DNA of 64,000 nt from Phytohabitans maris (GTDB taxonomy: Bacteria > Actinomycetota > Actinomycetes > Mycobacteriales > Micromonosporaceae): NCBI RefSeq assembly GCF_031085175.1, contig NZ_JAVHUY010000017.1:124001-188000 (forward strand). The letters are read 5' to 3'. Below, piece after piece: positions 8,929 to 38,370 of the stretch. The notes beneath the pieces are model-generated. The model made no database searches. It saw nothing but the letters and a program-made list of their open reading frames with translations, and was not told the DNA's origin. Made by a program: the position numbers and the translations under genes. How positions within the stretch are numbered: the first letter of the stretch is position 1; the number at the start of each line of letters is the position of its first letter.

Positions 8929-8982
8929 GTGATCAAAGCTCCCCTCATGCCGTTCTAGCAGCTTGAGGGGAGCTTCGATCAC
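8929..8982. terminator. Bidirectional terminator hairpin, repeat family copy 1
   Basis: GTGATCAAAGCTCCCCTCA is followed by the loop-region motif GTTCTAG and then the near-complement TTGAGGGGAGCTTCGATCAC. It lies between the converging cyclase and phospholipase genes, 7-10 bases from each stop. Arms and loop are nearly the same as in copies at 38317-38370 and at the mobile element ends, so this is a dispersed repeat and not just any hairpin. Confidence 0.8.
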
Positions 8983-8989
8983 GGGGGAG

Positions 8990-9502
8990 CTAGCGGGCCG
9001 AGCCTGCGGGCAGCAGTTGGGCCGCCTCGTTGATCTGCGCCGGGCTCACCGAGCCGAAGATCGACACGGCCTGGTAGTACGTCCAGGCGAGCGCCAGGCA
9101 GGCCGGGCGCACCGCCGAGTTGTACGTGTTGCACTTGCGCTTGAGGTCCTCGTAGAACGCGCTGTCCAGCCGGGACTTGTTCGCCGGAAACTGGCCGATC
9201 GCCTTGTAGTTGCGGTAGCCGAAGTCGTGCCGGTGGCAGGAGAGGGTGAAGTCGAACCCGAGGGGGTTGTCCGGGCTCGACGAGCAGTAGTCGGTCGACC
9301 AGTCGAAGCCGTACGCCGCCCAGGCGCCCTGGTTCTGCCGGGCGGAGTTCCAGGTGTTGTAGCTGGTCGCGCTGGTCTGGGTCCAGCTCGACAGGACCTG
9401 CGGCTTGTCGGCCGGCGCGGCCGCCGCCGGGCCTGCCAGCCCCAGCAGGGTGAGCAGGGCGGCGGGCACCGCGACGAGCAGGGTTGCGACCCGACGGGAC
9501 AC
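8990..9502 (-). CDS. Secreted prokaryotic phospholipase A2
   Basis: A 170-residue precursor with a signal peptide ending near LAGPAAAAPA. The mature part has the prokaryotic PLA2 active site CHRHDFGYRNYK, where the His-Asp pair activates water and binds calcium. Other cysteines (DYC, KRKC, RPAC) fit the two disulfides of Streptomyces-type enzymes. It hydrolyses the sn-2 ester of glycerophospholipids outside the cell. The gene converges with the cyclase-STAND gene, with a strong hairpin between. A promoter-sized gap (9503-9610) lies upstream, before the split hairpin at the mobile element's left end. Confidence 0.9.
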   Translation of the reverse strand: MSRRVATLLVAVPAALLTLLGLAGPAAAAPADKPQVLSSWTQTSATSYNTWNSARQNQGAWAAYGFDWSTDYCSSSPDNPLGFDFTLSCHRHDFGYRNYKAIGQFPANKSRLDSAFYEDLKRKCNTYNSAVRPACLALAWTYYQAVSIFGSVSPAQINEAAQLLPAGSAR

Positions 9503-9613: not shown

Positions 9614-9644
9614 GTGATCAAAGCTCCCTTCAAGTCGCTAGAAC
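9614..9644. other. attL: left arm of the split terminator plus core TAGAAC
   Basis: Bases 9614-9637 (GTGATCAAAGCTCCCTTCAA then GTCG) are the exact reverse complement of 18979-19002. The six-base core TAGAAC is at 9639-9644, and the same six bases are at 18974-18979. Beyond the core the two flanks differ, as expected for attL and attR of an integrated element. Joining the two outer arms gives a 24-base-pair stem with a short loop, matching the intact copies at 8929 and 38317. Confidence 0.85.
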
Positions 9645-9666
9645 AGCCCGACCACTAGGTATCCAT

Positions 9667-9981
9667 CTAGTCGGCTTCGACTCCACCGGCCCGCAGGATC
9701 CGGCGCACCGACTCCCGGTTGTAGCCGGTCACCGCGACGATCTCACCCTGCCGTGTGCCCGCCTTCGCCGCGCGGACGATCGCGGCGTGCAGCCGCTCGC
9801 GGGCCTGCGGCACCTTCGCCTTGACGTCGGCGAGCGCCTGCTCTGCGTCGCCGACTGCCGCCTGCGCCTCACGGAAGGCACGGGTTGCGGCCTCAAGGTC
9901 ATCTAGCACGCGGCCATAGTCGCATGCCCCAGTTTGCGCCACATCATGCCGGTATTCTGCGGCCATACGACGGTGGCTCAT
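9667..9981 (-). CDS. Small coiled-coil/HTH DNA-binding protein of the element
   Basis: About 104 residues from ATG 9981 (ATG at 9966 is an alternative; neither has a clear ribosome binding site). The N-terminal half is a charged helix rich in Ala/Glu. The C-terminal half (AKAGTRQGEIVAVTGYNRES then VRRILRAG) is a helix-turn-helix of the kind common in small actinobacterial element proteins. It ends 23 bases inside attL and points out of the element. A regulatory or excision-directing role is possible from its position; nothing in the sequence proves it. Confidence 0.6.
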   Translation of the reverse strand: MSHRRMAAEYRHDVAQTGACDYGRVLDDLEAATRAFREAQAAVGDAEQALADVKAKVPQARERLHAAIVRAAKAGTRQGEIVAVTGYNRESVRRILRAGGVEAD

Positions 9982-10082
9982 ATGGCCACGCGGCGTTAAC
10001 GTGTATGGCACAGACAAGGACGGGCCCGAGCGGCGCGCGAACGCCAACCCGGGCCCTTGATCGCCTAACGAGGAGGCGACCC

Positions 10083-10256
10083 ATGCACATCTTGCCGGAA
10101 CCTGCCCGCCCCGTTGCCGACGACGCCCGGCGCGCGTTGGCCGACCTCGGTGTCGAGACGTACGGCCAAGCCGTCGTCGCGCTGATGATGTGGAGCAGGC
10201 GCCACCTGCTCAGCCCCGCCGACGTCCGCGTGGTGCTGGCGAGGTACCCACGATGA
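10083..10256 (+). CDS. Small unknown protein, first gene of the plus-strand set
   Basis: A 57-residue protein starting MHILPEPARPVADDARRALA, with GAGGAGG seven bases before the ATG. It is a short helical protein ending RRHLLSPADVRVVLARYPR; I do not recognise a family. Its stop overlaps the next start as ATGA, so the two are translationally coupled. The promoter should lie in 9982-10082, divergent from the HTH gene. Confidence 0.55.
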   Translation: MHILPEPARPVADDARRALADLGVETYGQAVVALMMWSRRHLLSPADVRVVLARYPR

Positions 10257-10498
10257 CCGACTGGATGTCCGGGCCGTCCAGCGACGAGCCCACCCTGATC
10301 AGCGACATCTTCGACCTGGCCGACGCGAACTTCCGGCAGGGTCAGGCGGTGGCGATCGGCAACCACCACGGCGCCCGCGAAGCCCATCGGCGGGCGATGG
10401 CCGCGCTCGGCCGGATCCTGCGCCGGGTCGACGCCGGCGAGGTCGATGCGTCCAGCCTGCTGATCGAGCCGCCGGCGCAGCGGGGGGCGGACCGGTGA
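10253..10498 (+). CDS. Small unknown protein, second gene of the plus-strand set
   Basis: An 81-residue protein starting MTDWMSGPSSDEPTLISDIF. The middle (ANFRQGQAVAIGNHHGAREA) is helical. No motif known to me is present. It overlaps its neighbours by four bases on both sides (ATGA before, GTGA after), so it is part of a tight three-gene operon with the resolvase-like gene. A toxin-antitoxin reading was considered but no such family is recognisable. Confidence 0.55.
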   Translation: MTDWMSGPSSDEPTLISDIFDLADANFRQGQAVAIGNHHGAREAHRRAMAALGRILRRVDAGEVDASSLLIEPPAQRGADR

Positions 10499-10950
10499 AC
10501 ATCACCCGCACCAGCGACCTGGTACGCAGGGACCTCGCTCAGGTGCGACCTGATGTCGCACCTGCCGAGCCGGTCGAGCCGGCCGCTGTGGCTGCGCTGG
10601 CCCCGCGGCGGACCATCCCGGGCCGGGCGGTCGTCGTCCGGCCGCCGGGGCTCACACCGTCGCAGGTCGACGGATTGGTCAAGCAGTGCTTGGAGTACAT
10701 CGAGCGGCACCGGCACCGCCTGGTCGGGATCGCCGACGGCGAGGGCGCGTTGAAGCTGATCGCCTCCGGCGGCGCCGACCTGATGGTCGCGGTGTTCGCC
10801 AAGCATGTCCCGATACCGTCGTACATTCGGCTGGTCAGCGACGACTGGGCCGAGACGAACCCGCGCACGAGGCGGCCGCGCCCGGAGCGGGTGTCGCGGT
10901 TGGCGCCCGGCCCGGTACCGACGACGCAGAGGGCACGCCGCGTGTCCTGA
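10495..10950 (+). CDS. Degenerate resolvase-fold protein lacking the catalytic serine
   Basis: A 151-residue protein (GTG start in a GTGA overlap). Residues about 43-105 follow the order of a serine recombinase N-terminal domain: a first strand GRAVVVRPPG, a helix LVKQCLEYIERH, a strand HRLVGIADGEG, then GGADLMVAVFAKHVP where resolvases have a strand with a following Leu-Asp-Arg. The Arg after the first strand is kept, but the Ser of the R-V-S active site is replaced within RPPGLT. If related, it is catalytically dead and may act as an accessory or partner of the element's integrase. This is a manual comparison; the fold assignment is inference. Confidence 0.45.
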   Translation: MNITRTSDLVRRDLAQVRPDVAPAEPVEPAAVAALAPRRTIPGRAVVVRPPGLTPSQVDGLVKQCLEYIERHRHRLVGIADGEGALKLIASGGADLMVAVFAKHVPIPSYIRLVSDDWAETNPRTRRPRPERVSRLAPGPVPTTQRARRVS

Positions 10951-10995
10951 GACCCGCGCGGACCCGGACCCGGCGGCTTGGGCCCGGTACGGCGA

Positions 10996-11035
10996 AGCGG
11001 CCCGGCCTCTCCATTGTGGAGGGACCGGGCCGCTT
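10996..11035. terminator. Hairpin terminator between the plus-strand set and the tape measure gene
   Basis: GCGGCCCGG starting at 10997 pairs with CCGGGCCGC, which is followed by TTT; the inner CTCTCC/GGAGGG segments pair imperfectly. It lies between two converging genes and should stop transcription coming from the plus strand at least. Confidence 0.7.
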
Positions 11036-11048
11036 TCCGTTGCCGTGT

Positions 11049-13118
11049 CTAGCTTCCCGCCACCGCGACCGTGCCGTTGGGCCGCACGGTCAGCTTGATC
11101 TTGCCGGTGCGGATCAGCATCAGGATCAGGTCGACGAGCTTCTGCTCGGCGGCCGAGCCGCCGCCGCCTTCGACCCGGACCGTCGTCTCTCCGCCGCCGC
11201 CCATCCGGCGGAAGCCGCGCGGCAGCGGCACCACGGCTTCGTCCTGGCCGCCCTCGCCGAGCAGCGCGAGGGTGCCGCCGGGGCGGGCCCTGGCGATACC
11301 GCCGTCGGCGAGCATCGGGATGTCCGGGATCAGGTCGGGGATGGTGAAGCTGGCGCCGCCGATCAGCGGCACCCACGAGGGGATGCCGATGTGCCAGCCG
11401 AGGTCGAGCCGGTTCCACAGGGAGATGAGCTTGTTGATGCCGCCCTTGCCGGCCGCGACGATGCCGTCGAACATGCCCTTGGCCTTGTTGGTGATCTTGT
11501 TCTTGAGGCCGGCGACGAAGTTGACGAAGCTGTCGATCTTCCCGGTGACCCAGCGCCAGCCGGCCGCGACACCGTCGAAGACCATCTTCCAGAAGCCGGT
11601 GAACAGCCCCCACCACGCCTTGAACAGGTCGACGAAGAACTGGCCGATGGCCTTCCAGATGCCGGAGAAGATCGCCCACCACGTCTTGGCCGCAGTGACG
11701 ATCACGTCGAGCATGCCCTGCCAGGTGCCGACGATGTAGTCGATCACCGCGAAGAACACGGCCTTGATGAAGCCCCAGGTGGCCTCCCACGCCGTGGAGA
11801 ACCAGTCGGTCTTCTTCGCGATGAGCACGATGATCGCGATCAGGGCGACGATCGCCAGGACGATCAGCGTGACCGGCCCCAACGAGATCGCGGTGACCAC
11901 ACCCCACGCCGCCTGAACCGCCGTCCAGATCTTCATCGCCACCACGATCGTGTACACGGCGGCGGCGAGCACGCCGAGGGCGATCGCGAGGGGCTTCACC
12001 CAGGACTCGTTCTTCTTGAGCCAGCCGCCGAACGCCTCCAGCTTGGGGATGGCCTCGGACAGCTTCTGGATCAGCATCGTCTCCAGCCCGCGCTTGAACG
12101 CGACCAGCCGGGTCTTGGCGTTGTCGCCCAGCGTCTCGGCGAGCTGGTCGGTGGCGCCTTCGACGTCGCCGAGGCCGGAGCGGGTCGTATCCAGCGACTT
12201 GAGGAACTTGGGGATCTCGCTGACCGACAGGTCCTCCAGCGGGGTGCCGAACAGGGCGAGCGCGGCCTGCTGCTGCTTGAGCGGATCCTTGATCATCAGC
12301 AGGCCGGTCACGATCTGGTCGAACGCCTTCGCCGCCTCCGGCCCCCCCTTGGTGATCATGCGGGAGAACTTCTCCTGCGACAGGCCCAGCGCGTCATAGC
12401 CGGCCTTCGACCGGGTCGACATATCCGACGCCAAGATCGTGAACTCTTTCAATGCGTCGCCGGTCTTGTCGATCCCGTACATGCCCTTCTGCGACGCATT
12501 GACCAGCAGCCCGAACGCCTTCTCGCCGGTGATACCGATCGAGGTCAGGAACGGCCCGTACTCGTCGACGGCGTCGATGATGTCCTCGCGGACCGCCTTC
12601 GGCACCTTCTGCAGCGACGCGGTGATCAGGTCGAGAGCCTGGGTGGAGTCCTTGGCCAGCCCTGTCTTGACGACCTGCCCGGCGACCTGCGCGGCCCGGG
12701 CGACGTCGAGCTCGAACGCCTGCGCCAGGGCCAGCACCTTCCCGGTCATCTGCTCCACCGCGGCGTCACCGACCATGTCGTCGATCGACGTGGTGACTGC
12801 CTCGACCGCGCCGGCGACCTCATCCATGGACTGGCCCCAGCCCTGGGCGTAAAGGCTCCCGGCGGTGCGGCCGAGGTCCTCGGCCTCCTTGCCGGTGGCG
12901 CCGAGCGACGCGGCAAGCTTGTCGGTGGCCACCTCGGAGTCGAGTGCGGCCACCGTGCCGGCCATCAGCGCGGCGCCCGCGGCCGCCCCGGCGATAGCCG
13001 CCGTCTTCTTCGCGCCGTCCCACATCTTGTCCAGCCTCTTCGCGACGTCGCCGGCACCCTTGTCCACACCGGAGCCATCGAGGCCCACCTTGATCAGCAG
13101 ATCCGCGAGCGTGCTCAC
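11049..13118 (-). CDS. Phage tail tape measure protein
   Basis: 689 residues from GTG 13118, with AAGGAGGTGAG nine bases upstream. The N-terminus has the Gly-rich/Ala-rich start of TP901-type tape measure proteins; the long helical middle is followed by hydrophobic segments (about residues 385-470) and a Trp/Phe-rich repeat region (TWWAIFSGIWKAIGQFF). The C-terminus has the usual ADGGIARARPGG and GEGGQDEAVVPLP motif. In siphophages this protein sets tail length (about 0.15 nm per residue, so about 100 nm here) and helps DNA entry. No other tail gene is next to it: upstream is a non-coding stretch, downstream a terminator. An operator-like palindrome lies at 13154-13166. Confidence 0.9.
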   Translation of the reverse strand: MSTLADLLIKVGLDGSGVDKGAGDVAKRLDKMWDGAKKTAAIAGAAAGAALMAGTVAALDSEVATDKLAASLGATGKEAEDLGRTAGSLYAQGWGQSMDEVAGAVEAVTTSIDDMVGDAAVEQMTGKVLALAQAFELDVARAAQVAGQVVKTGLAKDSTQALDLITASLQKVPKAVREDIIDAVDEYGPFLTSIGITGEKAFGLLVNASQKGMYGIDKTGDALKEFTILASDMSTRSKAGYDALGLSQEKFSRMITKGGPEAAKAFDQIVTGLLMIKDPLKQQQAALALFGTPLEDLSVSEIPKFLKSLDTTRSGLGDVEGATDQLAETLGDNAKTRLVAFKRGLETMLIQKLSEAIPKLEAFGGWLKKNESWVKPLAIALGVLAAAVYTIVVAMKIWTAVQAAWGVVTAISLGPVTLIVLAIVALIAIIVLIAKKTDWFSTAWEATWGFIKAVFFAVIDYIVGTWQGMLDVIVTAAKTWWAIFSGIWKAIGQFFVDLFKAWWGLFTGFWKMVFDGVAAGWRWVTGKIDSFVNFVAGLKNKITNKAKGMFDGIVAAGKGGINKLISLWNRLDLGWHIGIPSWVPLIGGASFTIPDLIPDIPMLADGGIARARPGGTLALLGEGGQDEAVVPLPRGFRRMGGGGETTVRVEGGGGSAAEQKLVDLILMLIRTGKIKLTVRPNGTVAVAGS

Positions 13119-13557
13119 CGCGCGCTCACCTCCTTGAATGTCTAAGTATGTGACGGTCTGTGACCGCTGGAAGGTTTGAAATTTGTACAGGCTGGCAGCC
13201 GCTAACCCCCGCCGCCATCGGACCCCCGGCCCGGGGGGTACCCCCCACCCCCGGTCACAGTGTGTAGTGATCGATGGGTGTCGGTGCGGGCGGCGCGCTG
13301 GCGGATCTTCGCGGGAGAAGGGACCACGCTCCCCGCCATCGCTGCCGTGCTGTCCTGTGGTGGCTGGCGTTGACGCGCCTGCCCGCACCGGGTTGGTTCT
13401 CCGGCCCGCGCGTGTGGTGGCCTCCTGTGTCGGGTGCCCCCTGCTGTGCGGTGGTGCCTGTCCTCGTGGCCAGTCGAGGGTGCGCGGTCTGGCCTGCCGC
13501 GCGCGGCCCTGTGCGGGCCGGAGAAGCTCTGTGGAGTTGTGGGGTGCCCGGGGGGGC
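13119..13557. other. Non-coding stretch upstream of the tape measure gene
   Basis: I see no convincing gene here. Features are a palindrome CGGTCTGTGACCG (13154-13166) close to the tape measure start, a second GGTCACAG at 13253-13260, and a perfect 14-base palindrome GGGGGGTACCCCCC (13233-13246). The rest is GC-rich with several weak open frames of skewed composition. It probably holds the tape measure promoter and operator and the terminator for the set ending at 13558; an origin or packaging site is possible but unsupported. Confidence 0.5.
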
Positions 13558-13806
13558 TTAGGTGGGCTCTGAGGCGGGTGTGAGGGTGTTGGGGCCGGAG
13601 AGCCGCCACCAGGCGCTGACGGTCAGGTCGGGTGCCTGTGGGTGGTCGGCGATGATGGCGAGGGCTTCGGCGGGCAGGACGATGTCGTGGCCGCCGGCGA
13701 GGGTCAGGAACGCGGGGTTCTTCTTGCCGATGGTCTCGGACAGGGTGAGCGCGACCGGGAACCAGCAGGCGATCAGGACGCCGCGGATGGTGGGTGTGGT
13801 GGCCAT
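13558..13806 (-). CDS. Unknown small protein of the element
   Basis: 82 residues starting MATTPTIRGVLIACWFPVAL, with one hydrophobic stretch near the N-terminus. I do not recognise a family. Its start overlaps the preceding stop by one base (TGATG type), so it is the last gene of the minus-strand set that runs from 15132 downward. Confidence 0.5.
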   Translation of the reverse strand: MATTPTIRGVLIACWFPVALTLSETIGKKNPAFLTLAGGHDIVLPAEALAIIADHPQAPDLTVSAWWRLSGPNTLTPASEPT

Positions 13807-14426
13807 CAGACCGGCACCGCCTGGTGTGCGGCGTCGGCGAGCCGGGTGGGCAGGGCGACGGTCGCGGCGCGGCGGGCGGCATAGTCGCAGCCGTGGACCT
13901 CCTTGAGGATCTCGCGGGCGGCGACCGCGAGGGGCTGGTACCGCTGGTCGAGGTCGAGCAGGGTGCGCCAGGCCATGATCTGGGTGGGCGCACCGGTGCG
14001 GAGGATGTCCGGTTCGCGGTAGTCGGGTGCGAATCTGTCGAGCTTGGCCAGGGCGTCCGCGGCCTCGTCGAGCAGGGCGGTGACCGCGTCGCGGAGCGGT
14101 CCGGCCAGGAAGCCGGCGCCGTCGGTGCGCGCCCAGGCGTACAACTGCGAGCGGGCGACCGAGGTCATGGCGCTGTTGGTGGCCATGGCCTTGCGGTAGG
14201 CGTGCCGGTCGGCGCGGTACTGCTCGGCCGCCGGCCCGTCGATGGCGGGATCGCCAGTCATCTTGGGCCGCTGCGGTCCGGCCTTGAAGCGGTTGGTGTT
14301 GATGGCCGAGGCGCGGCGGGCGGCGCGCAGCTCGAGCACGCGGTCGAGCTTGGCGGCGACGTGGTCGGGAAGCACACCGCGGATGGCGTCGAGGGCTTCG
14401 GGGAGCTTGGGTGTGGTCTGCGCCAT
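13806..14426 (-). CDS. Unknown protein of the element
   Basis: 206 residues from ATG 14426, preceded by AAAGGTGG at good spacing; a GTG start 12 bases upstream would overlap the previous gene. It is largely helical and Ala-rich (ELRAARRASAINTNRFKAGP, AADALAKLDRFAPDY). No family is recognised. It is translationally linked with its neighbours, being two bases from the preceding stop and overlapping the next start by one base. Confidence 0.55.
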   Translation of the reverse strand: MAQTTPKLPEALDAIRGVLPDHVAAKLDRVLELRAARRASAINTNRFKAGPQRPKMTGDPAIDGPAAEQYRADRHAYRKAMATNSAMTSVARSQLYAWARTDGAGFLAGPLRDAVTALLDEAADALAKLDRFAPDYREPDILRTGAPTQIMAWRTLLDLDQRYQPLAVAAREILKEVHGCDYAARRAATVALPTRLADAAHQAVPV

Positions 14427-14428
14427 GG

Positions 14429-14788
14429 TCAGCGCCACCTTTCGATGTTCGCGGCGGTCTTGCCGGCCGCGGTGTCGGGTGTGGTGTCGGTCAGCAGTGC
14501 TTCGGCGAGGGCGGCCGCGTCGACCGGTTCTTCGTCGGCGGGCGGGTCGGGCAGGATGCGGCGCTGCCCGCCGAGCAGGGCCTGGTCGTCGGTGCTCATG
14601 GGTGGTGGTTCCTTCCGTCTGGTCTTGCGGCTTCTGCGGATCATCTGGTCGGCGAGGTCGGCGAGTGCGTCGCCGCCGCGGCGGCTGATGCGGGGGTGGT
14701 TGGAGGCGACGAGGAGGGCGTCGGCGAGGTGGCCGGCGTCGTCGGCGGTGAGCGCGTCGAGGTCGAGCAGCACAAGCTCACGGGTCAT
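14429..14788 (-). CDS. Unknown acidic protein of the element
   Basis: 119 residues from ATG 14788 in an ATGA overlap with the gene before. It starts MTRELVLLDLDALTADDAGH, has a basic stretch QMIRRSRKTRRK in the middle and an acidic Ala-rich C-terminus. The DLDALTADDAGHLADALLVA helix region is reminiscent of small segments in actinophage proteins, but I cannot name a family. Confidence 0.5.
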   Translation of the reverse strand: MTRELVLLDLDALTADDAGHLADALLVASNHPRISRRGGDALADLADQMIRRSRKTRRKEPPPMSTDDQALLGGQRRILPDPPADEEPVDAAALAEALLTDTTPDTAAGKTAANIERWR

Positions 14789-15132
14789 CGGCCGTCGCCG
14801 ACGTGGAGGTCGGTGTAGCCGTGGCCGAGTGAGAGCCGCAGTCCGGTGCTGCCGGGCCAGAGCTGGTCGCGGTGCGCGGCGGCGAGCTGGACGACGTTGA
14901 GGGTGGCGGTGGCGAAGTCCTCGGCTGTCTGGTTGGTGCCCCTGGCCATGGCGATCTGGGTGGTGCGGCCCTGGCGCCGTAGGGCGGCCAGGGTCGGACA
15001 GTCGTCGTCGTGCGCGACGGAGTACGAGGTTTGGTCGGCGGCGAGGGTGACGGTGCTGCTGCAGTCTGGGCAGCGGGCCGCGCGCTTGATGCGGGCGGCG
15101 GCGATCGGGTCGAGCCGTGGGCGCTTGCTCAT
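14785..15132 (-). CDS. Unknown zinc-ribbon-like protein of the element
   Basis: 115 residues starting MSKRPRLDPIAAARIKRAAR. A CPDCSSTVTL motif near residue 21 and a following DDDCPTL suggest a small metal-binding ribbon, though a full second CxxC pair is absent. It is the first gene of the set that runs down to 13558; ribosome binding site GGAGGATCG precedes the ATG. Role unknown. Confidence 0.5.
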   Translation of the reverse strand: MSKRPRLDPIAAARIKRAARCPDCSSTVTLAADQTSYSVAHDDDCPTLAALRRQGRTTQIAMARGTNQTAEDFATATLNVVQLAAAHRDQLWPGSTGLRLSLGHGYTDLHVGDGR

Positions 15133-15154
15133 CGATCCTCCTGGTTGGCTGGTA

Positions 15155-15206
15155 GGTGCTCCCGGAGCGCTCCTCGGTGCTCCTCGGGAGCGCCCGTAGG
15201 TGCTCC
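15155..15206. repeat. Three GGTGCTCC iteron-like repeats and an inverted repeat
   Basis: GGTGCTCC occurs at 15155-15162, 15176-15183 and 15199-15206, start-to-start spacing 21 and 23 bases, about two helical turns. Within the same stretch GCTCCCG (15158-15164) pairs with CGGGAGC (15185-15191), and GGAGCGCTCC is a ten-base palindrome at 15164-15173. The cluster is immediately after the RepA-like ATPase gene. Candidate replication origin or repressor site; equally it may be a terminator for the ATPase gene. Confidence 0.5.
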
Positions 15207-15224
15207 GCTCCCCACACCCACCGA

Positions 15225-16472
15225 TTAGGTGGGGAGCGGGAGCATCGGGTCGGGTTCGGGCATCGGGTCGGCCTCATCTGTGGCGTGTTTTTGCTGCTCA
15301 CGCCACCTGCGCAACGCCGACATGGCGCGGCTGCCGCCCCATCCCATGCGCTCCTTGACGTCTCGCTGGGAGCGCGGGGGCGGATCGAGCTGGTCGAGGA
15401 GCGCGACATCGGGGTCAGGAGCACTCTCGATGCCGTCGTCTCGGGGTGGGCCGGTAACTGCCCAGGTGAGTGTTCCGTCCGGCCAGGCGCTCAGCACGAA
15501 CCGGCCGGCGGGGGCGCTCTTGCCAGCGCCGGGGCAGTGTGCCCGGACGCCGCCGCTGCGGTCTTTCTCGACGGTGAGGTTGGCTGCGCCGCCGCGGCCG
15601 GGCGCGAACGTCTCGTGCACGCGTACGCGAAGGGTCACGCCGTTGACGGCGCGCCGCTTCGCCAGCGTGCCGGTTTGGCCGTGCACGCGGGCGTCGTCGG
15701 ACTTCGGCAGGTGGTCGATCGCGACGACCGCAGCGCCAGCGTTCGCGAGCGGGGTGAGCACGCGGCGGTGCGCAACGGTGTAGTCGTCGGGGTTGCTGCT
15801 GTTGAGGCCGAACAGCGGGAGCAGTTCGCCGAGCGAGTCGACCAGGGCGACGGCGGGCCGGAACATGCGCAGGGCGGCGACGGTGAGCACGAGGTTGTCC
15901 TCGTCCTCGGGCTCGGCGAGGCGGAAGCGGTTGGGGTCCGAGAGGACGTCCGGTCTGGCGCCGAGCATGAGTAGCCGGCTGAGGATCTCCGCGGCGCCGT
16001 TGTGGTCGAGGTCGATGATGGCGGCGCGGCGGTCATCGGCCAGGGCCTCGACAATGGCGGCGAGGGCGATCCAGGTCTTGCCGCACTCGGGGTCTCCGAA
16101 GAGGACGTTCACCTTGGCGGCGTACAGCAGGCAGTGTCCGTCCGTGCGGCGCAGCAGCACCGGCGGCGGCGCCTCAGGGAGCCCACCGGAGAGTACTGCG
16201 GCGACGTCGACAAAGAGCGGCACCTCTTCGCCCGTGGCTGTCGCTCCCGGAGCCTCCGGCAGGTCGCTTTCCGGCGGCGGCTCGTCGATCCACCCGTCCT
16301 TGAGATCCTGGTCGGCGCGGATGGCGGCGATCGCGAGGTCGGCGATCTCGTCGTCGCTGACCTCGCGCCGGCCGTTGGCTTGCTCGGCCGCGTGGCCGAG
16401 GCCGGCGAGATGCGTCTGGGCGGCGTGGATCCCCTCCCAGGTCGGCGTGCCGGGGTCGTCCACGGCGGTCAC
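15225..16472 (-). CDS. RepA-like AAA ATPase (hexameric helicase type)
   Basis: 415 residues, GTG start in a GTGA overlap with the gene before. Walker A is FGDPECGKTW near residue 125; Walker B is RPAVALVDSLGE; VVAIDHLPKS is where RepA/RadA-like ATPases have the next conserved strand. The C-terminus (RSQRDVKERMGWGGSRAMSA) looks like a winged helix. The family includes plasmid RSF1010 RepA helicases and phage or satellite replication ATPases. It probably loads at or unwinds the element's origin; the iteron-like repeats just downstream support this. Substrate is inferred. Confidence 0.75.
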   Translation of the reverse strand: MTAVDDPGTPTWEGIHAAQTHLAGLGHAAEQANGRREVSDDEIADLAIAAIRADQDLKDGWIDEPPPESDLPEAPGATATGEEVPLFVDVAAVLSGGLPEAPPPVLLRRTDGHCLLYAAKVNVLFGDPECGKTWIALAAIVEALADDRRAAIIDLDHNGAAEILSRLLMLGARPDVLSDPNRFRLAEPEDEDNLVLTVAALRMFRPAVALVDSLGELLPLFGLNSSNPDDYTVAHRRVLTPLANAGAAVVAIDHLPKSDDARVHGQTGTLAKRRAVNGVTLRVRVHETFAPGRGGAANLTVEKDRSGGVRAHCPGAGKSAPAGRFVLSAWPDGTLTWAVTGPPRDDGIESAPDPDVALLDQLDPPPRSQRDVKERMGWGGSRAMSALRRWREQQKHATDEADPMPEPDPMLPLPT

Positions 16473-16723
16473 GCCGCACCCGGATCGTCATATCCCCAGC
16501 GGTCCCGGATGCCGTGCTGGGCGGCGGCGTCTGCGCCGTAGAGCCGGATGCAGAGCAGGTCGAGGGCGAGGGACACCCGCCGGCGGTAGCGGCGCCGGTC
16601 GGCTCGCCAGCGGGCGCGTACGCGGTCGGGCGCTGCTACGCTGGCGTGGTCGAGCGCCTCGCCGGTGACGACTTCTGACCCTCCGGGCTGTCGCCGCCCG
16701 GGGGGTCGTTCCATGTCGGTCAT
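16469..16723 (-). CDS. Unknown small basic protein of the element
   Basis: 84 residues starting MTDMERPPGRRQPGGSEVVT, rich in Arg (RVRARWRADRRRYRRRVSLA). No family recognised. It overlaps the genes on both sides by four bases, so it sits between a short gene and the RepA-like ATPase in one operon. Confidence 0.5.
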   Translation of the reverse strand: MTDMERPPGRRQPGGSEVVTGEALDHASVAAPDRVRARWRADRRRYRRRVSLALDLLCIRLYGADAAAQHGIRDRWGYDDPGAA

Positions 16724-16956
16724 GCCGCGGCGACCCCGTCGCGTGGTGCGGGGAGCAGGGCGCGGATCTTCTCGATCGTCTCGGCGGACAGCGGCGGCGC
16801 CTGCTCGATCGCCTCGCGGATGCGGCGTTCAGTGCGGGCGAGCGCGAGCGCCTCGCGTGCCTTGATGACGTCGGGGTCGTCGTCGGGTCGGCCTCGGCGC
16901 TTCAGGCCGCCGAGGCTTGCGCGTAGTTGGGGGACGGTGGCGGCGTCGAGCTCCAC
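16720..16956 (-). CDS. Unknown small helical protein, first gene of the ATPase operon
   Basis: 78 residues from GTG 16956, with GCGGAGG eight bases upstream. Sequence ELDAATVPQLRASLGGLKRR then a charged helix (KAREALALARTERRIREAIE) suggests a small helical DNA- or protein-binding partner; family unknown. It starts the operon that leads to the RepA-like ATPase. Confidence 0.5.
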   Translation of the reverse strand: MELDAATVPQLRASLGGLKRRGRPDDDPDVIKAREALALARTERRIREAIEQAPPLSAETIEKIRALLPAPRDGVAAA

Positions 16957-17094
16957 GAGTTCCTCCGCATGACGGAGCGTCTCGCAGGTGCTCTCCTGCG
17001 CCTACATCGGCCCAGCAACTCGGGGGCAAGGACCTGGTCTCGGTGCAACCAGGCGGCCGGGGTCCCGACAATCAACTGAACCAAGCTTTGGGCG
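16957..17094. promoter_or_regulatory. Control region with three inverted repeats upstream of the ATPase operon
   Basis: This 138-base gap holds GCAGG/CCTGC (16984-16999), CCTGGT/ACCAGG (17033-17053) and AAGCT/AGCTT (17083-17101), each an inverted pair with a short spacer. It is the only gap of size in front of the ATPase operon and is the likely place for its promoter and operators. No protein is assigned to the sites. Confidence 0.45.
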
Positions 17095-17469
17095 CTAGCT
17101 TACACCTGGCTTTGCCCGCAGAGTGGCTACGGTGCCGCTGATCCTCGCGTGCGCCGCGGCTGGCTCGACGACCGCCCATCCGATGTCGAGCCAGCCGTGC
17201 TTGGTGCAGCGCACCGAGTTGCGCAGCATCGGATATTCGCGATCTCCGACGCGCACGCGTAGCCACTCGCCGCGGTCGACGATCGTCGCGGTGACGACAC
17301 CGCACACGTCGCAGCGGATGTGCACGAGCGGCGTGGCGCGGTCGCTGACCGGGCGGCCGGCCTCCCACCACTGCCACCATGACAGCCGCTCGCGGAGGTC
17401 GACGGCGCGTCTACGCCACCGCGGGATCAGGGCGTGGCGCAGGCGGCTCCACCAGCTGCCCGTGTTCAC
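17095..17469 (-). CDS. Unknown protein with possible zinc knuckle, after the integrase
   Basis: 124 residues from GTG 17469, overlapping the integrase stop as GTGA. The N-terminus is Trp/Arg-rich (SWWSRLRHALIPRWRRRAVD); the C-terminal half has CDVCGVVTA and RCTKHGW, which could bind one zinc. The tight coupling with the integrase makes a recombination accessory or directionality role worth considering, but no family supports it. Confidence 0.5.
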   Translation of the reverse strand: MNTGSWWSRLRHALIPRWRRRAVDLRERLSWWQWWEAGRPVSDRATPLVHIRCDVCGVVTATIVDRGEWLRVRVGDREYPMLRNSVRCTKHGWLDIGWAVVEPAAAHARISGTVATLRAKPGVS

Positions 17470-18944
17470 GCTTCGTCGGCCCACCGGTGTGTGATCCGCT
17501 CCCCGGCCGGCTGGCCGCGGTAGGCCGCGCGCTGCAGCTCCAGCCGCTCGAACACGACCTTGAGCAGCGCCTTGCGCGCCGGCAGCGACGCGTCGGCCCA
17601 CCGCCGCACCAGCAACTCCTCGTTGCCCAGCGCGTCGGCGAAACCGGCCAGCGCCGGCGGCGTGGACAGCTGCGCCGCCCGCTCGGTCGCCTTCTTGATC
17701 CTCGGCTTGAGGCGGCGCAGCTGCTCCAGGATCTCCTCTTCCTCCTCGGCGGCCGCGGTCTCCAGCCGGTCCCGGAACCTGCTCGCCTTGCGGCGCAGGT
17801 CGTCCGCCTCGGCGCGGGCGGCGGTGGCATCGGCCGACGTGTCGCGGGCGAACACGGCGGCGGCGTCGGGGCGGGCGAGCCGGCCGAGGGCGAGCGCGAG
17901 CACGTACTGGTCGGCCTGGGCGGCGTTGACCTTCGTCCCGCACTCCCGGCAGAAGTAGGTCGCCGCGGTGTTGCCCTTGCCGTGCTGGCCCTTCCACGAC
18001 CCGGAGGCGCCGCAGACGCAGTCACCGACCTGCGAGAGCAGCCACACCGTGTGTCCGGGCTTGCTGCCGCGGTTGCCGTCCAGCACGGCGACCGCCTGCC
18101 GCCAGGTCGTCTCGTCGACGATCGGCACCCAGCGGCCCTGCGTGTGCCCGCCGCCAGGGGCCGGGCGCAGGTTCGCGTACGCCGGGCACGTCACGATGGC
18201 GTGGATCGTGGACCGGGGCAGGATGACGCCCCGCGCGGCGAGGTCGCGCTGCACCTCGTTCAGCGGCACCGAGGCGGCGACCCGCTCGATGATCTCCTTG
18301 ACGACCGGGGCGTCGTCGTTGGGTATCTGCTGCCACACGCCGTCGACTTGCGCGAGCTTGCCGCGCCCGTCGTACACGCGGGCGTAGCCGAACGGCGCGC
18401 GGCCGCCGGGCCGGCCCTGGGCCGCGCTGTCTGCGTGTCCTCGCCGAATGTTCACACTGAGCTTCTCCGAGAAGTAGGCGGCGTCGATGCCGTCGTCGGC
18501 GAGCGATCGCCAGTCTCGACCGACTCGCACATCGTAGGTGCGGCGATGGGTGATGACGTGGATGAGGACCCCACGGTCCCGGCAGACGTTCAGGAACCGG
18601 GACCACGCCTCGAGCTCACGGGCGGCCCGGTCGACCTCCCACACGATCACCAGGCCGTACCGGCCGGCGCGCAGGTCGTCGAGCAGGGCGTCGAACCGCT
18701 TGCGCGGCTTCGTGCCGAACCGGCTGGCGGACTGGCGCTCTTCGTAGACGGCGTCGTCGGTGAGCAGCACCGGCCGGCCGTCGACCTCGGTCACCTCGCG
18801 GGCGGCGTCGAGCTGCTGCTCGGGCGAGCGCTCGCGGTCCCGGTCGGCCGCCCTGCCCTTACGGGATACCCGGGCAAGCAGGGCGGCGACCAGCGGGAAC
18901 ACCGGCGCCTCGTCGGCGAGCCGGTCGAGCAGAGGAGTAGTCAT
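17466..18944 (-). CDS. Large serine recombinase (integrase)
   Basis: 492 residues. The N-terminal resolvase domain has the active-site motif LLARVSRKGR (nucleophile Ser27) and VIVWEVDRAAREL. Then come the recombinase domain (GRAPFGYARVYD, PRSTIHAIVTCPAYANL), a zinc ribbon (CVCGASGS and YFCRECGTK) and a coiled coil rich in Glu (TAAAEEEEEILEQLRRL). This is the full layout of phage-type integrases such as phiC31. It should join attP and attB to form the ends seen at 9639 and 18979. The start lies 30 bases from the attR core on the strand that is read through from the upstream glycosidase gene. Confidence 0.92.
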   Translation of the reverse strand: MTTPLLDRLADEAPVFPLVAALLARVSRKGRAADRDRERSPEQQLDAAREVTEVDGRPVLLTDDAVYEERQSASRFGTKPRKRFDALLDDLRAGRYGLVIVWEVDRAARELEAWSRFLNVCRDRGVLIHVITHRRTYDVRVGRDWRSLADDGIDAAYFSEKLSVNIRRGHADSAAQGRPGGRAPFGYARVYDGRGKLAQVDGVWQQIPNDDAPVVKEIIERVAASVPLNEVQRDLAARGVILPRSTIHAIVTCPAYANLRPAPGGGHTQGRWVPIVDETTWRQAVAVLDGNRGSKPGHTVWLLSQVGDCVCGASGSWKGQHGKGNTAATYFCRECGTKVNAAQADQYVLALALGRLARPDAAAVFARDTSADATAARAEADDLRRKASRFRDRLETAAAEEEEEILEQLRRLKPRIKKATERAAQLSTPPALAGFADALGNEELLVRRWADASLPARKALLKVVFERLELQRAAYRGQPAGERITHRWADEA

Positions 18945-18973
18945 GCACGAAGGGTACCCAATGCACGGCTGAT

Positions 18974-19002
18974 TAGAACGACTTGAAGGGAGCTTTGATC
19001 AC
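18974..19002. other. attR: core TAGAAC plus right arm of the split terminator
   Basis: The core TAGAAC is at 18974-18979, followed by GACTTGAAGGGAGCTTTGAT then CAC. The 24-base arm 18979-19002 is the exact complement of 9614-9637. In the uninterrupted chromosome this would be the terminator of the glycosidase gene ending at 19017. Confidence 0.85.
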
Positions 19003-19016
19003 AAACTGGTGGCGCG

Positions 19017-20621
19017 TCAGCGCACCACTGGGCGGGGCGGGCTGGGCGGGCTTTCGTTCCAGAGCCGGTCCAGCGCGGTGACGTAGTAGGTGTAACGGGC
19101 GCCGGGCGCCGCGGTCGTGTCCACGTAGGACGTGCCGCGGGTGGTGCCGACCAGGTGCGCCGCGTCCGCGAAGCCACACTGGCCGGGGAGGGTGAGCCCG
19201 TCGAAGCGGTACACGGCGTACGACGTGGCCTGCCCCAGGACCTGCTTCCAGCGCAGCGTGACCGCGCCGTCCGCCGCCCGGGACGCGCCGGTGACCAGCG
19301 GAAACAGCAGCGGCTTGCGCGGCAGGTGCGGCATCTGCGGCACCAGCGCCGGGCGGGAGTAGTGCTCGGCGGCGTAGATGTCGGTCGCGCCGAGCTTGTT
19401 GGCCCGCACCTGGACCGCGCTGAAGTGCACGTTGCCATCCACCTCGGGGTAGTCGCGGTTGAACGTCAGGTGGCGGGACATCTCGGCCGGGTCCTGCCAC
19501 GGCGCCGGCTGCGCCGGATCAGCGATCTTGTAGTCGGCCTGCCCGATGTAGAGGTGCACGCGGGTGCCGGCGACCACGTCCGACCACCACGGCACCAGCT
19601 TGGCGTAGTCGGCCACGGCCAGCCCGATGTGCCAGTACAACTGGGGCAGGATGTAGTCGATCCACTCCTGCTTGACCCACTTGCGGGTGTCCGCGAAGTT
19701 CGCGTCGTACGACTGGGTGCCGTTGGTGTCCGAGCCGAGCGGGTCGGTGGCCTTGTTGCGCCAGATGCCGAACGGGCTGATGCCGAACTTCACCCACGGC
19801 TTGGCCGCCTTCACCTTCGCGCCGAACTCCTGGACCAGCAGGTCGATGTTGTGCCGCCGCCAGTCCGCCTTGCTGGCGAAGCCGGCGCCGTACCGCGCGA
19901 ACGTCGCGTCGTCCGGGAAGTCCTGCCCGGCCGCCGGGTACGGGTAGAAGTAGTCGTCGAAGTGCACGCCGTCGATGTCGTACTTGACCACCGCGTCGAG
20001 CATGGCCCGCTGCACGAACTGCCGTACCTCGGGGATGCCGGGGTTGTAGTAGAGCCGCGAGCCGGCCGCCGCGACCGGGTAGGCGACCGCCCACTCCGGG
20101 TGCCGCTGGACCGGGTGGTTGGGCGCGAGCTTGGCGATGTCCGGCCCGGCACCCTGCGGCATCGAGATCCGGTACGGGTTGAACCACGCGTGGAACTCCA
20201 GGTTGCGCGCGTGTGCCTCGGCGACCAGAAACCTCAGCGGGTCCCAGCCGGGCGAGGCGCCGTCGCGGGCGCCGGTCAGCCACTCCGACCACGGCTCGTA
20301 CGGCGAGGGCCAGAACGCGTCGGCGGTGGGGCGCACCTGCACGATCACCGCGTTGTGGCCCCGTCGCTGGGCCAGGTCGAGCCAGGCGCGGTACTCCGCC
20401 TTGAGCTTCTCCTCGCTCTGCCCCGGCGCGCTGGGCCAGTCGATGTTGGTGACGCTCGCGATCCACATCGCCCGGAACTGCCGCTTCGGGGTGGCGGGGT
20501 TCGTCGTACACGTGGGGGTGGTGGCCGCGGCGCTCGCGGGTGCCGCCGGCGCCACGAGCCCGCCCGCGATGACCAGCGCCGCCACCAGCGCGCTTCTCAG
20601 GGGACGTCTCTTCGACAACAT
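19017..20621 (-). CDS. Secreted GHL10 (DUF187) family glycoside hydrolase
   Basis: 534 residues with a signal peptide (ALVIAGGLVAPAAPASA). The GHL10 barrel starts at QFRAMWIASVTNIDWPSAPG and contains HAWFNPYRIS, DGVHFDDYFYPYP, KFGISPFGIWRN and DYILPQLYWHI, all diagnostic of YngK-like proteins. A fibronectin-type-like domain follows (VTLRWKQVLGQATSYAVYRF). Members act on polysaccharides, possibly peptidoglycan or exopolysaccharide; the substrate is unknown. Ribosome binding site GGAGG lies six bases upstream of the ATG, and a small hairpin CCTTC/GAAGG (20635-20649) is just before it. Its terminator has been split by the mobile element. Confidence 0.88.
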   Translation of the reverse strand: MLSKRRPLRSALVAALVIAGGLVAPAAPASAAATTPTCTTNPATPKRQFRAMWIASVTNIDWPSAPGQSEEKLKAEYRAWLDLAQRRGHNAVIVQVRPTADAFWPSPYEPWSEWLTGARDGASPGWDPLRFLVAEAHARNLEFHAWFNPYRISMPQGAGPDIAKLAPNHPVQRHPEWAVAYPVAAAGSRLYYNPGIPEVRQFVQRAMLDAVVKYDIDGVHFDDYFYPYPAAGQDFPDDATFARYGAGFASKADWRRHNIDLLVQEFGAKVKAAKPWVKFGISPFGIWRNKATDPLGSDTNGTQSYDANFADTRKWVKQEWIDYILPQLYWHIGLAVADYAKLVPWWSDVVAGTRVHLYIGQADYKIADPAQPAPWQDPAEMSRHLTFNRDYPEVDGNVHFSAVQVRANKLGATDIYAAEHYSRPALVPQMPHLPRKPLLFPLVTGASRAADGAVTLRWKQVLGQATSYAVYRFDGLTLPGQCGFADAAHLVGTTRGTSYVDTTAAPGARYTYYVTALDRLWNESPPSPPRPVVR

Positions 20622-37468: not shown

Positions 37469-38320
37469 ATGTCGACCTTGGACTACCAGATCGTTGACGT
37501 CTTCACCGACCGCGCGTTCACGGGCAACCCCCTCGCGGTGGTCTTCGGCGCCCAGGATCTGAGCACCGAACAGCTGCAGGCGATCGCGCGCGAGTTCAAC
37601 CTCTCGGAGACCGTGTTCATCCTGCCGCCCAGCGACCCGGCCGCGGCCACCTACCGGGCGCGGATCTTCACGCCCGGAGTGGAGCTGCCGTTCGCCGGCC
37701 ACCCGAGCGTCGGCGCGGCGGTCGTACAGGCGGGTGGCCCCGGTCGGGTGATCCAGGAGTGTGGCGCCGGGCTGCTGCCGATCGAAGTGACCAAGGACGG
37801 CCGGGCCACGCTCACCGGCGGTACCCCGTCTCTCGGCCCTGAGATCGACCCCGCGCCGCTGCTGGCGGCCGCCGGCCTGGCCGAGGCCGACTTCGTGGGT
37901 CCACCGCCGCGGATGGCGGGGTGCGGCATCGACTTCCCGTACCTGGCGGTGCGCCCGGAGGCGGTGTCCCGGGCGGTGCTCGACCACGGCGCCGCGGCCC
38001 GCGACGGCGTCGACACGGTGCTGATCGTGGCCTGGGACGCGGCTGCCCGCGCCGCCCACGTGCGCATGTTCGGCCCGGGCGTCGGCGTCGCCGAAGACCC
38101 GGCGACCGGCTCGGCGGCGCTCGGCCTCGGTGTCTGGCTGGTGGCGAGCGGGCTGCTTCCCGGCGAGGGCGAGTCGGCGTACACGGTGCGGCAGGGCGCC
38201 GAGATCCACCGCCCGTCCACACTGGACTGCGTGGTGACCGCGGCCGGTGGCGCGGCGGTCAAGGCCACGGTGACCGGCCAGGTCGTACCCGTGGCGGAGG
38301 GCCGGATCACCATCCCGTGA
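37469..38320 (+). CDS. PhzF-family isomerase
   Basis: 283 residues starting MSTLDYQIVDVFTDRAFTGN, the standard PhzF beginning (Q-V-D-F plus F-x-GNP). FNLSETVFILPP carries the catalytic Glu; RIFTPGVELPFAGHPSVGAA and AEDPATGSAALGLGVWL are the other family blocks. PhzF proteins are epimerase-like isomerases; without other phenazine genes here the substrate is unknown. The TGA stop is inside the first arm of the terminator repeat. GGAGG lies close to the ATG. Confidence 0.9.
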   Translation: MSTLDYQIVDVFTDRAFTGNPLAVVFGAQDLSTEQLQAIAREFNLSETVFILPPSDPAAATYRARIFTPGVELPFAGHPSVGAAVVQAGGPGRVIQECGAGLLPIEVTKDGRATLTGGTPSLGPEIDPAPLLAAAGLAEADFVGPPPRMAGCGIDFPYLAVRPEAVSRAVLDHGAAARDGVDTVLIVAWDAAARAAHVRMFGPGVGVAEDPATGSAALGLGVWLVASGLLPGEGESAYTVRQGAEIHRPSTLDCVVTAAGGAAVKATVTGQVVPVAEGRITIP

Positions 38321-38370
38321 TCAAGGCTCCCCTCAAGTCGTTCTAGCGGCTTGACGGGAGCTTTGATCAT
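38317..38370. terminator. Bidirectional terminator hairpin, repeat family copy 4
   Basis: GTGATCAAGGCTCCCCTCAA then GTCGTTCTAGCGG and TTGACGGGAGCTTTGATCAT. It includes the stop codon of the PhzF gene and ends eight bases before the stop of the converging gene. Arms and loop match the copy at 8929 and the split copy at the mobile element ends. Confidence 0.8.

Follow-up and report, generated by a model that had tools for sequence, protein, structure and literature searches.

The window analysed here is a stretch of 64,000 nucleotides from the actinomycete Phytohabitans maris (contig NZ_JAVHUY010000017.1, positions 124,001 to 188,000), and the subject of this report is a 9.3-kb element located between a phospholipase A2 gene on its left (8990–9502, minus strand; PF09056, 2.2e-36) and a GHL10 glycosidase-like gene on its right (19017–20621, minus strand; PF02638, 1.2e-87). 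The element is bounded by the two arms of a split hairpin, at 9614–9637 and 18979–19002 on the plus strand, which are exact reverse complements at 24 of 24 positions; the GHL10 gene ends 14 nt from the right arm. The sequence TAGAAC is present at both junctions of the element, at 9639–9644 on the left, where it follows a C at 9638, and at 18974–18979 on the right, where base 18979 is common to the core and the arm. An open frame for a serine integrase (17466–18944, minus strand) starts 29 nt inside the right core. The complementary arms with 9.3 kb between them, the duplicated TAGAAC and the integrase gene just inside the right end had all been pointed out in a preliminary description of this DNA, and each was found in place. 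TAGAAC occurs five times on the plus strand of the window, so the hexamer alone means little; it is its location at the two arms that counts.

When the arms are joined, the result is arm-CTAGAA-arm, a near-perfect palindrome of 54 bp, which is of the same type, as had also been proposed, as intact hairpins at 8929–8982, between convergent gene ends according to codon-position gene calls, and at 38317–38370. These hairpins belong to a large family. The outer arm, GTGATCAAAGCTCCC, allowing up to one mismatch, has 223 forward and 218 reverse matches in the genome, compared to none on either strand for a control pattern; since each hairpin contributes one arm in each sense, the 441 matches correspond to roughly 220 hairpins. 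A BLAST search of the genome with the left junction gave at least 48 matches (40 of 235 first-look candidates were scored). A set of 56 intact hairpins was gathered from stretches around matches, a non-random set in which many were picked by their likeness to the left junction, and 54 of them have TAGA or TCTA at the centre. All 24 pairs are Watson–Crick in 11 of the 52 hairpins that are exactly 54 long, and 20–23 pairs are so in the other 41. Four of these 52 differ from the joined arms at a single base out of 54, and three match the inner 34 bases of the rejoined site completely.

The family is a dispersed extragenic palindrome similar to the repetitive extragenic palindromic (REP) sequences of other bacteria, with many similar copies outside genes that are specific to this lineage. 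A REP-associated tyrosine transposase (RAYT) was considered as the driver of its spread and rejected, as the Y1_Tnp domain (PF01797) has no match in the genome; 5 of 14 control genomes were positive. A microRNA identity was likewise dropped: there were five matches to Rfam microRNA families, all far below their gathering scores.

The arms of this family normally lie close together. In 52 stretches from the genome, selected around hairpins and thus non-random, arms occurred as close pairs, and only seven were unpaired at up to two mismatches. Two of the seven are those of the element, four belong to visibly intact hairpins with an additional mismatch or indel (L077, L083 twice and L113), and the last is an isolated half-arm located next to an intact hairpin (L108). 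The close pairing throughout the sampled stretches means that the split pair around the element is not due to chance. A chance inverted repeat or an assembly artefact is, in our judgment, extremely improbable as an explanation of the locus. The assembly is a draft of 95 contigs, and several contigs end inside hairpins beside copies of an insertion sequence (IS) of the IS1182 family, both of which speak for an artefact. However, both junctions of the element are internal to a contig of 191,880 bases, the integrase matches only once in the genome (E ≤ 1e-40), and the two flanking genes are adjacent to each other in three related genomes.

The integrase is a protein of 492 amino acids. The PF00239 domain (6e-13) covers residues 21–178, and the PHROG integrase model phrog_95 (1.9e-51) covers residues 20–474; based on the latter match, the C-terminal part is probably that of a large serine integrase. 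The attachment sites of such enzymes, attP on the phage and attB on the host, are imperfect palindromes about one central dinucleotide and share a short core. The sites rebuilt from this locus have the same organization. In an attP assembled from the internal ends of the element and the core, 13 of 22 positions are symmetric when the AG of TAGAAC is taken as the centre. Six neighbouring centres score only 2–6 of 22, and 0.55% of the positions of the element yield 13. For the rebuilt attB, the same centre gives 21 of 22. No base of the hairpin arms enters into the attP symmetry, so the agreement with attB provides independent support for a serine-integrase crossover at mid-loop. AG, which is also the centre of the palindrome, is thus the likely crossover dinucleotide, and the arms would be the host halves of attL (left) and attR (right).

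We consider it highly probable that a prophage was integrated by a serine integrase into an attB formed by the loop of a hairpin and that it subsequently decayed to a remnant. The arms, the core, the integrase at the end of the element, the near-identical hairpins elsewhere in the genome and the dinucleotide common to attP and attB all support the integration into a hairpin loop that had been suggested from the outset. The resident integrase presumably carried out the reaction.

The best-scoring genes of the element are all on the minus strand; three short plus-strand frames near the left end score weakly. The gene at 15225–16472 encodes a putative helicase/primase-like AAA ATPase, for which the PF13481 match (19.6 bits) is under the cut-off of 27. 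It has relatives in three IMG/VR contigs, with identities of 69%, 64% and 38%, and is 25–34% identical to phage proteins that, among the 12 matches listed, are mostly named primase, helicase or polymerase. A phage tail tape-measure protein is encoded at 11049–13118 (PF10145, 4.6e-17; phrog_1272, 2.4e-36), its start set by codon-position scoring in a frame that reaches 13388, and is 47.8% identical over 73% of its length to a protein of Micromonospora phage pMLP1. None of the IMG/VR contigs with a relative of the ATPase matched any other protein of the element, and the same was true of those with a relative of the tape-measure protein. Codon-position scoring also indicates four small minus-strand coding frames (13558–13806, 13806–14438, 14429–14773 and 14785–15132), of which the first, second and fourth have no Pfam or PHROG match. 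At the left end, a small protein (9667–10047, minus strand) might be a helix-turn-helix protein (phrog_7061, E = 0.0026); codon scoring backs 9667–9909 weakly. Beside the tape-measure gene is a hairpin of the element’s own (10995–11035), unrelated to the family described above. No capsid, portal or terminase families were found among the proteins of the element that were scanned. We take the element to be a 9.3-kb prophage remnant that was probably once larger; a satellite is also possible.

The hairpin family is sparse and patchy in related bacteria. The outer arm (up to one mismatch) has zero or one match in each of five other genomes of the same genus. Among 200 genomes of the taxonomic family, 34 have any match, and 25 of these have only one, a number that the control pattern also reaches in some genomes. 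Higher counts, 13 and 11, come from two genomes that belong to one other genus. The inner core, CAAGTCGTTCTARCGACTTG, with up to two mismatches, gave 105 + 113 matches on the two strands of the P. maris genome, 29 + 28 in G003, 18 + 22 in G004 and 11 + 21 in G099, which is of another genus, against zero or one per genome for the control; a single inner-core site may match on both strands, so these counts are not numbers of hairpins. There was no match in G001, G002 or G005, and only 8 of 354 family genomes had any. When the hairpin core was used as an exact pattern on a collection of genome contigs, from which records of the P. maris genome may be excluded, none was found.

Two hairpins found in G003 by a blind palindrome scan have the same inner stem and nearly the same loop as those in P. 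maris and a different outer arm. Further hairpins with differing outer arms were picked by their inner core and so show the difference in the outer arm only. Further places noted for the patchy family are L157 (13112), L158 (2672), L160 and L168. G003 also has hairpins of other types (L156 at 9755 and 102, L158 at 10119), one of which occupies the place orthologous to the 8929 hairpin, and a GATCAAGGGCA...TGCCCTTGATC type occurs there more than once. At the 8929 site, G005 and G002 carry hairpins of different sequence. The presence of other hairpin types at the orthologous place indicates that the sequence of a gene-end hairpin varies between species at the same site. At the 38317 site, the sequence of G005 and G002 continues without a hairpin; in G001, this place is taken up by 0.5 kb of different DNA.

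At the site of the element itself, the GHL10 and phospholipase genes are adjacent in G001, G002 and G005, with a short gap between them and no element. In G003, both genes are present and the hairpin that separates them is of a different kind, and G004 has no phospholipase gene in the flank that was fetched.

Several observations weigh against integration into a hairpin loop by this integrase. The short gap in G001, G002 and G005 lacks a hairpin as well, which at face value is the outcome that the preliminary description had named as refuting, and the orthologous intact hairpin was thus not seen. A circular form of the element was not seen either, none having been looked for. These three genomes are practically free of a hairpin family that has about 220 copies in P. 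maris, so their hairpin-free sites are not taken as a refutation. We read the comparison to mean that the hairpin entered this lineage before the element did, and an intact copy at this exact place is suggested by the paralogous hairpins. The integrase itself gave no match to the PF07508 recombinase domain at E ≤ 0.001; a PF07508 search of the genome yielded five other loci and did not include this integrase, and none of the five has such a hairpin in the 1.5-kb flanks that were fetched. Nor does the integrase recur at several sites: there is one copy here, and at E ≤ 1e-40 the 353 other family genomes contain nothing more than 39% identical to it. A search of all 354 (E ≤ 1e-40, four candidates scored per genome) found 19 homologues in 17 other genomes. 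No split hairpin was seen at any of the 19, in a comparison of limited reach that went no further than about 19 kb past the integrase, where longer prophages cannot show both ends, and in which four stretches were cut by contig ends. For this integrase, hairpin-loop integration is a single case.

The stretches around the homologous integrases are rich in GC and contain exact inverted pairs measuring up to 19 nt and, in the interior of L120, one of 27–28 nt. Within 700 nt upstream of an integrase start, none exceeds 15 nt, and a pair in L120 inspected by eye had no common core; all were taken as chance. Searches for the integrase locus in collections of genome contigs and viral contigs found no relatives, although records of the P. 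maris genome may be excluded from these, and the rebuilt attP core had no match in the viral contigs.

The same loops have been used by a second, unrelated element. Five genomes were searched for half-hairpins next to a loop, and two more half-hairpins were found in the P. maris genome, both adjoined by one and the same foreign sequence. (Six matches, all in G004, were obtained with patterns whose inner pairs are broken, and these were hairpins with mispaired inner bases, one of them cut by a contig end; 17 further matches in G003, G004, G099 and G011 included no clear split hairpin by eye.) The foreign sequence is an IS of about 1,907 bp (L219, 11–1917, on G000:C44; ends set by eye) with a transposase of the IS1182 family (NF033551, 290.3 bits versus a cut-off of 270). 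Among the 40 candidates scored, of 851 at first look, five near-identical copies or ends were recognized, on C44, C52, both ends of C48 and C78 (L219, L222, L223, L224 and L226). All five split hairpins of this same family at the CTAG in the loop: there are two full left arms ending in CTAG and three right arms starting with CTAG, and two more left sides are cut by the start of a contig within AAGTCGCTAG. The arm or flank sequences differ between copies, which points to at least three separate insertions into hairpin loops. A relative of this IS in C16, 73% identical, has CTAG at both ends by eye and lies outside hairpins of this family. CTAG is rare (25 in the window), so that CTAG and hairpin are inseparable as the target of the IS.

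The relatives and the IS1182 copies bear on two other ways in which the element might have come to lie between the arms. The arms could be the element’s own terminal inverted repeats, so that arm, 9.3 kb and arm arrived together as a transposon-like unit, and the solitary hairpins would be internally deleted relatives. In favour of such a unit, neither hairpin nor element is present here in three relatives, and the hairpins resemble gains in this lineage, as at 38317. Against this, about 220 hairpins are without this cargo and one has it, no transposase family was detected among the proteins of the element scanned (overlapping sets of 8, 10 and 5), a direct repeat inside inverted arms is the product expected of site-specific recombination, and the IS shows that loops of this type accept unrelated DNA. 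We regard this origin as improbable. Alternatively, the element may have entered through a transposase-like event or a recombination accident at the loop, as the IS did, with the serine integrase being only a bystander. The use of the same loops in the same genome by the IS gives this idea some footing, but the integrase gene is 29 nt from the end of the element, IS ends are lacking, TAGAAC is preceded by C on one side and by T on the other, so that CTAG is not found on both, and the attP is symmetric about AG. A bystander role is therefore very improbable.

The preliminary description had referred to the hairpin as a terminator, which agrees with its location and not with its sequence. Gene context was taken from a simple codon-position gene caller, so gene calls are approximate, and the hairpins were not randomly drawn. 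Of the 54 that could be placed, 35 are between convergent genes, 17 between tandem genes and 2 between divergent genes, and none are within genes. A called stop codon is located within 30 nt of 48 of the 54, and in 12, including that at 38317, a called gene ends within the first bases of the hairpin. The terminal TGATCA of the hairpin makes a stop codon available in both directions. A stem-loop thus follows just after stop codons, as in an intrinsic terminator, but the U-run after the stem is missing: at none of 56 hairpins is there a stretch of four consecutive T’s within 12 nt of either side. The family is terminator-like by position and does not represent a textbook intrinsic terminator, and any terminator function is suggested by position. 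Protection of mRNA 3' ends, which has been proposed for REP sequences, is an equally possible role.

The sequence of events favoured here would begin with a prophage that had a large serine integrase and whose attP was recombined with an attB consisting of the 54-bp near-perfect palindrome of one of the dispersed hairpins. Crossover would have occurred at the central AG of the six-base loop, CTAGAA, placing phage DNA between the arms and destroying the hairpin. AG is not self-complementary, and the loop would therefore fix the orientation of insertion even though the two half-sites of attB are equal. The phage would later have decayed to the 9.3-kb remnant with its integrase, helicase-like gene, tape-measure gene and small genes. 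With the hairpin lost, transcripts from the GHL10 gene may enter the co-directional integrase gene. The other approximately 200 copies of the hairpin could also serve as attB.

Since the unrelated IS1182 element uses the same loops as the prophage remnant, the hairpins seem to be recurrent landing sites of mobile DNA. A more far-reaching version, to which we give about even chances, is that some 200 lineage-specific, terminator-like palindromes were adopted independently by a serine-integrase prophage and an IS1182 transposon via the same loop and that, with equivalent attB half-sites, the loop dinucleotide alone sets orientation. Should the integrase indeed use the palindrome, its attB would be present in high copy, would spare genes and would have two identical half-sites. 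It would then be a clean system for testing what gives serine recombinases their orientation and possibly a tool for multi-copy integration in laboratory actinomycetes. Amplified gene-end hairpins might also be a shelter common to unrelated kinds of mobile DNA, a role that REP sequences play for the insertion sequences of other bacteria.

Precedents exist for most parts of this arrangement, the nearest being phiRv1 in REP13E12 and IS1182/IS1272 elements in terminator hairpins. IS1397, IS621, ISKpn1 and ISPpu9 insert specifically into REP sequences (PMC1525189); their transposases come from IS families such as IS3 and IS110, unlike the serine integrase in this case. IS1272 and TnSha1 of staphylococci are members of the IS1182 family that target inverted repeats or terminators (PMC4923244 and PMC5678879); the second element described above belongs to this family too. 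The staphylococcal elements are reported to delete some or all of the hairpin, make no target duplication and have no sequence preference, whereas the IS1182 element in P. maris leaves both arms in place and is flanked by CTAG at both ends. The serine-integrase element is unrelated to either. Group IIC introns use intrinsic terminator motifs as targets, but these are retroelements that insert after the motif (PMC4424553), while the element here is within the loop.

Multi-targeting large serine recombinases, in which one integrase has many possible attB sites, sometimes because the target recurs in the host, are described in PMC10083194 (see also PMC13137831), with DUF4368 carried by 63% of one such clade. 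That group is defined by several sites and mostly by DUF4368 in one clade; here there is one site and no DUF4368 match at E ≤ 0.001. The words “terminator” and “palindrom” are absent from the main text of both papers, and within the open-licence literature and the terms searched, no report was found that places the attB of a serine integrase in a REP-like or terminator hairpin. What appears to be new, within those searches, is that a dispersed palindrome at gene ends should be the attB of a serine integrase; repeats, REP sequences, terminators and many-target recombinases each have precedents.

Phage-like element phiRv1 of Mycobacterium tuberculosis is about 9 kb and uses several copies of REP13E12, which is a longer repeat with few copies. 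The site in P. maris, in contrast, is a 54-bp palindrome with about 220 relatives. The two systems are alike in that a serine recombinase is associated with a prophage-like element that lies within a repeated sequence of the host genome (PMC9317374 for phiRv1).

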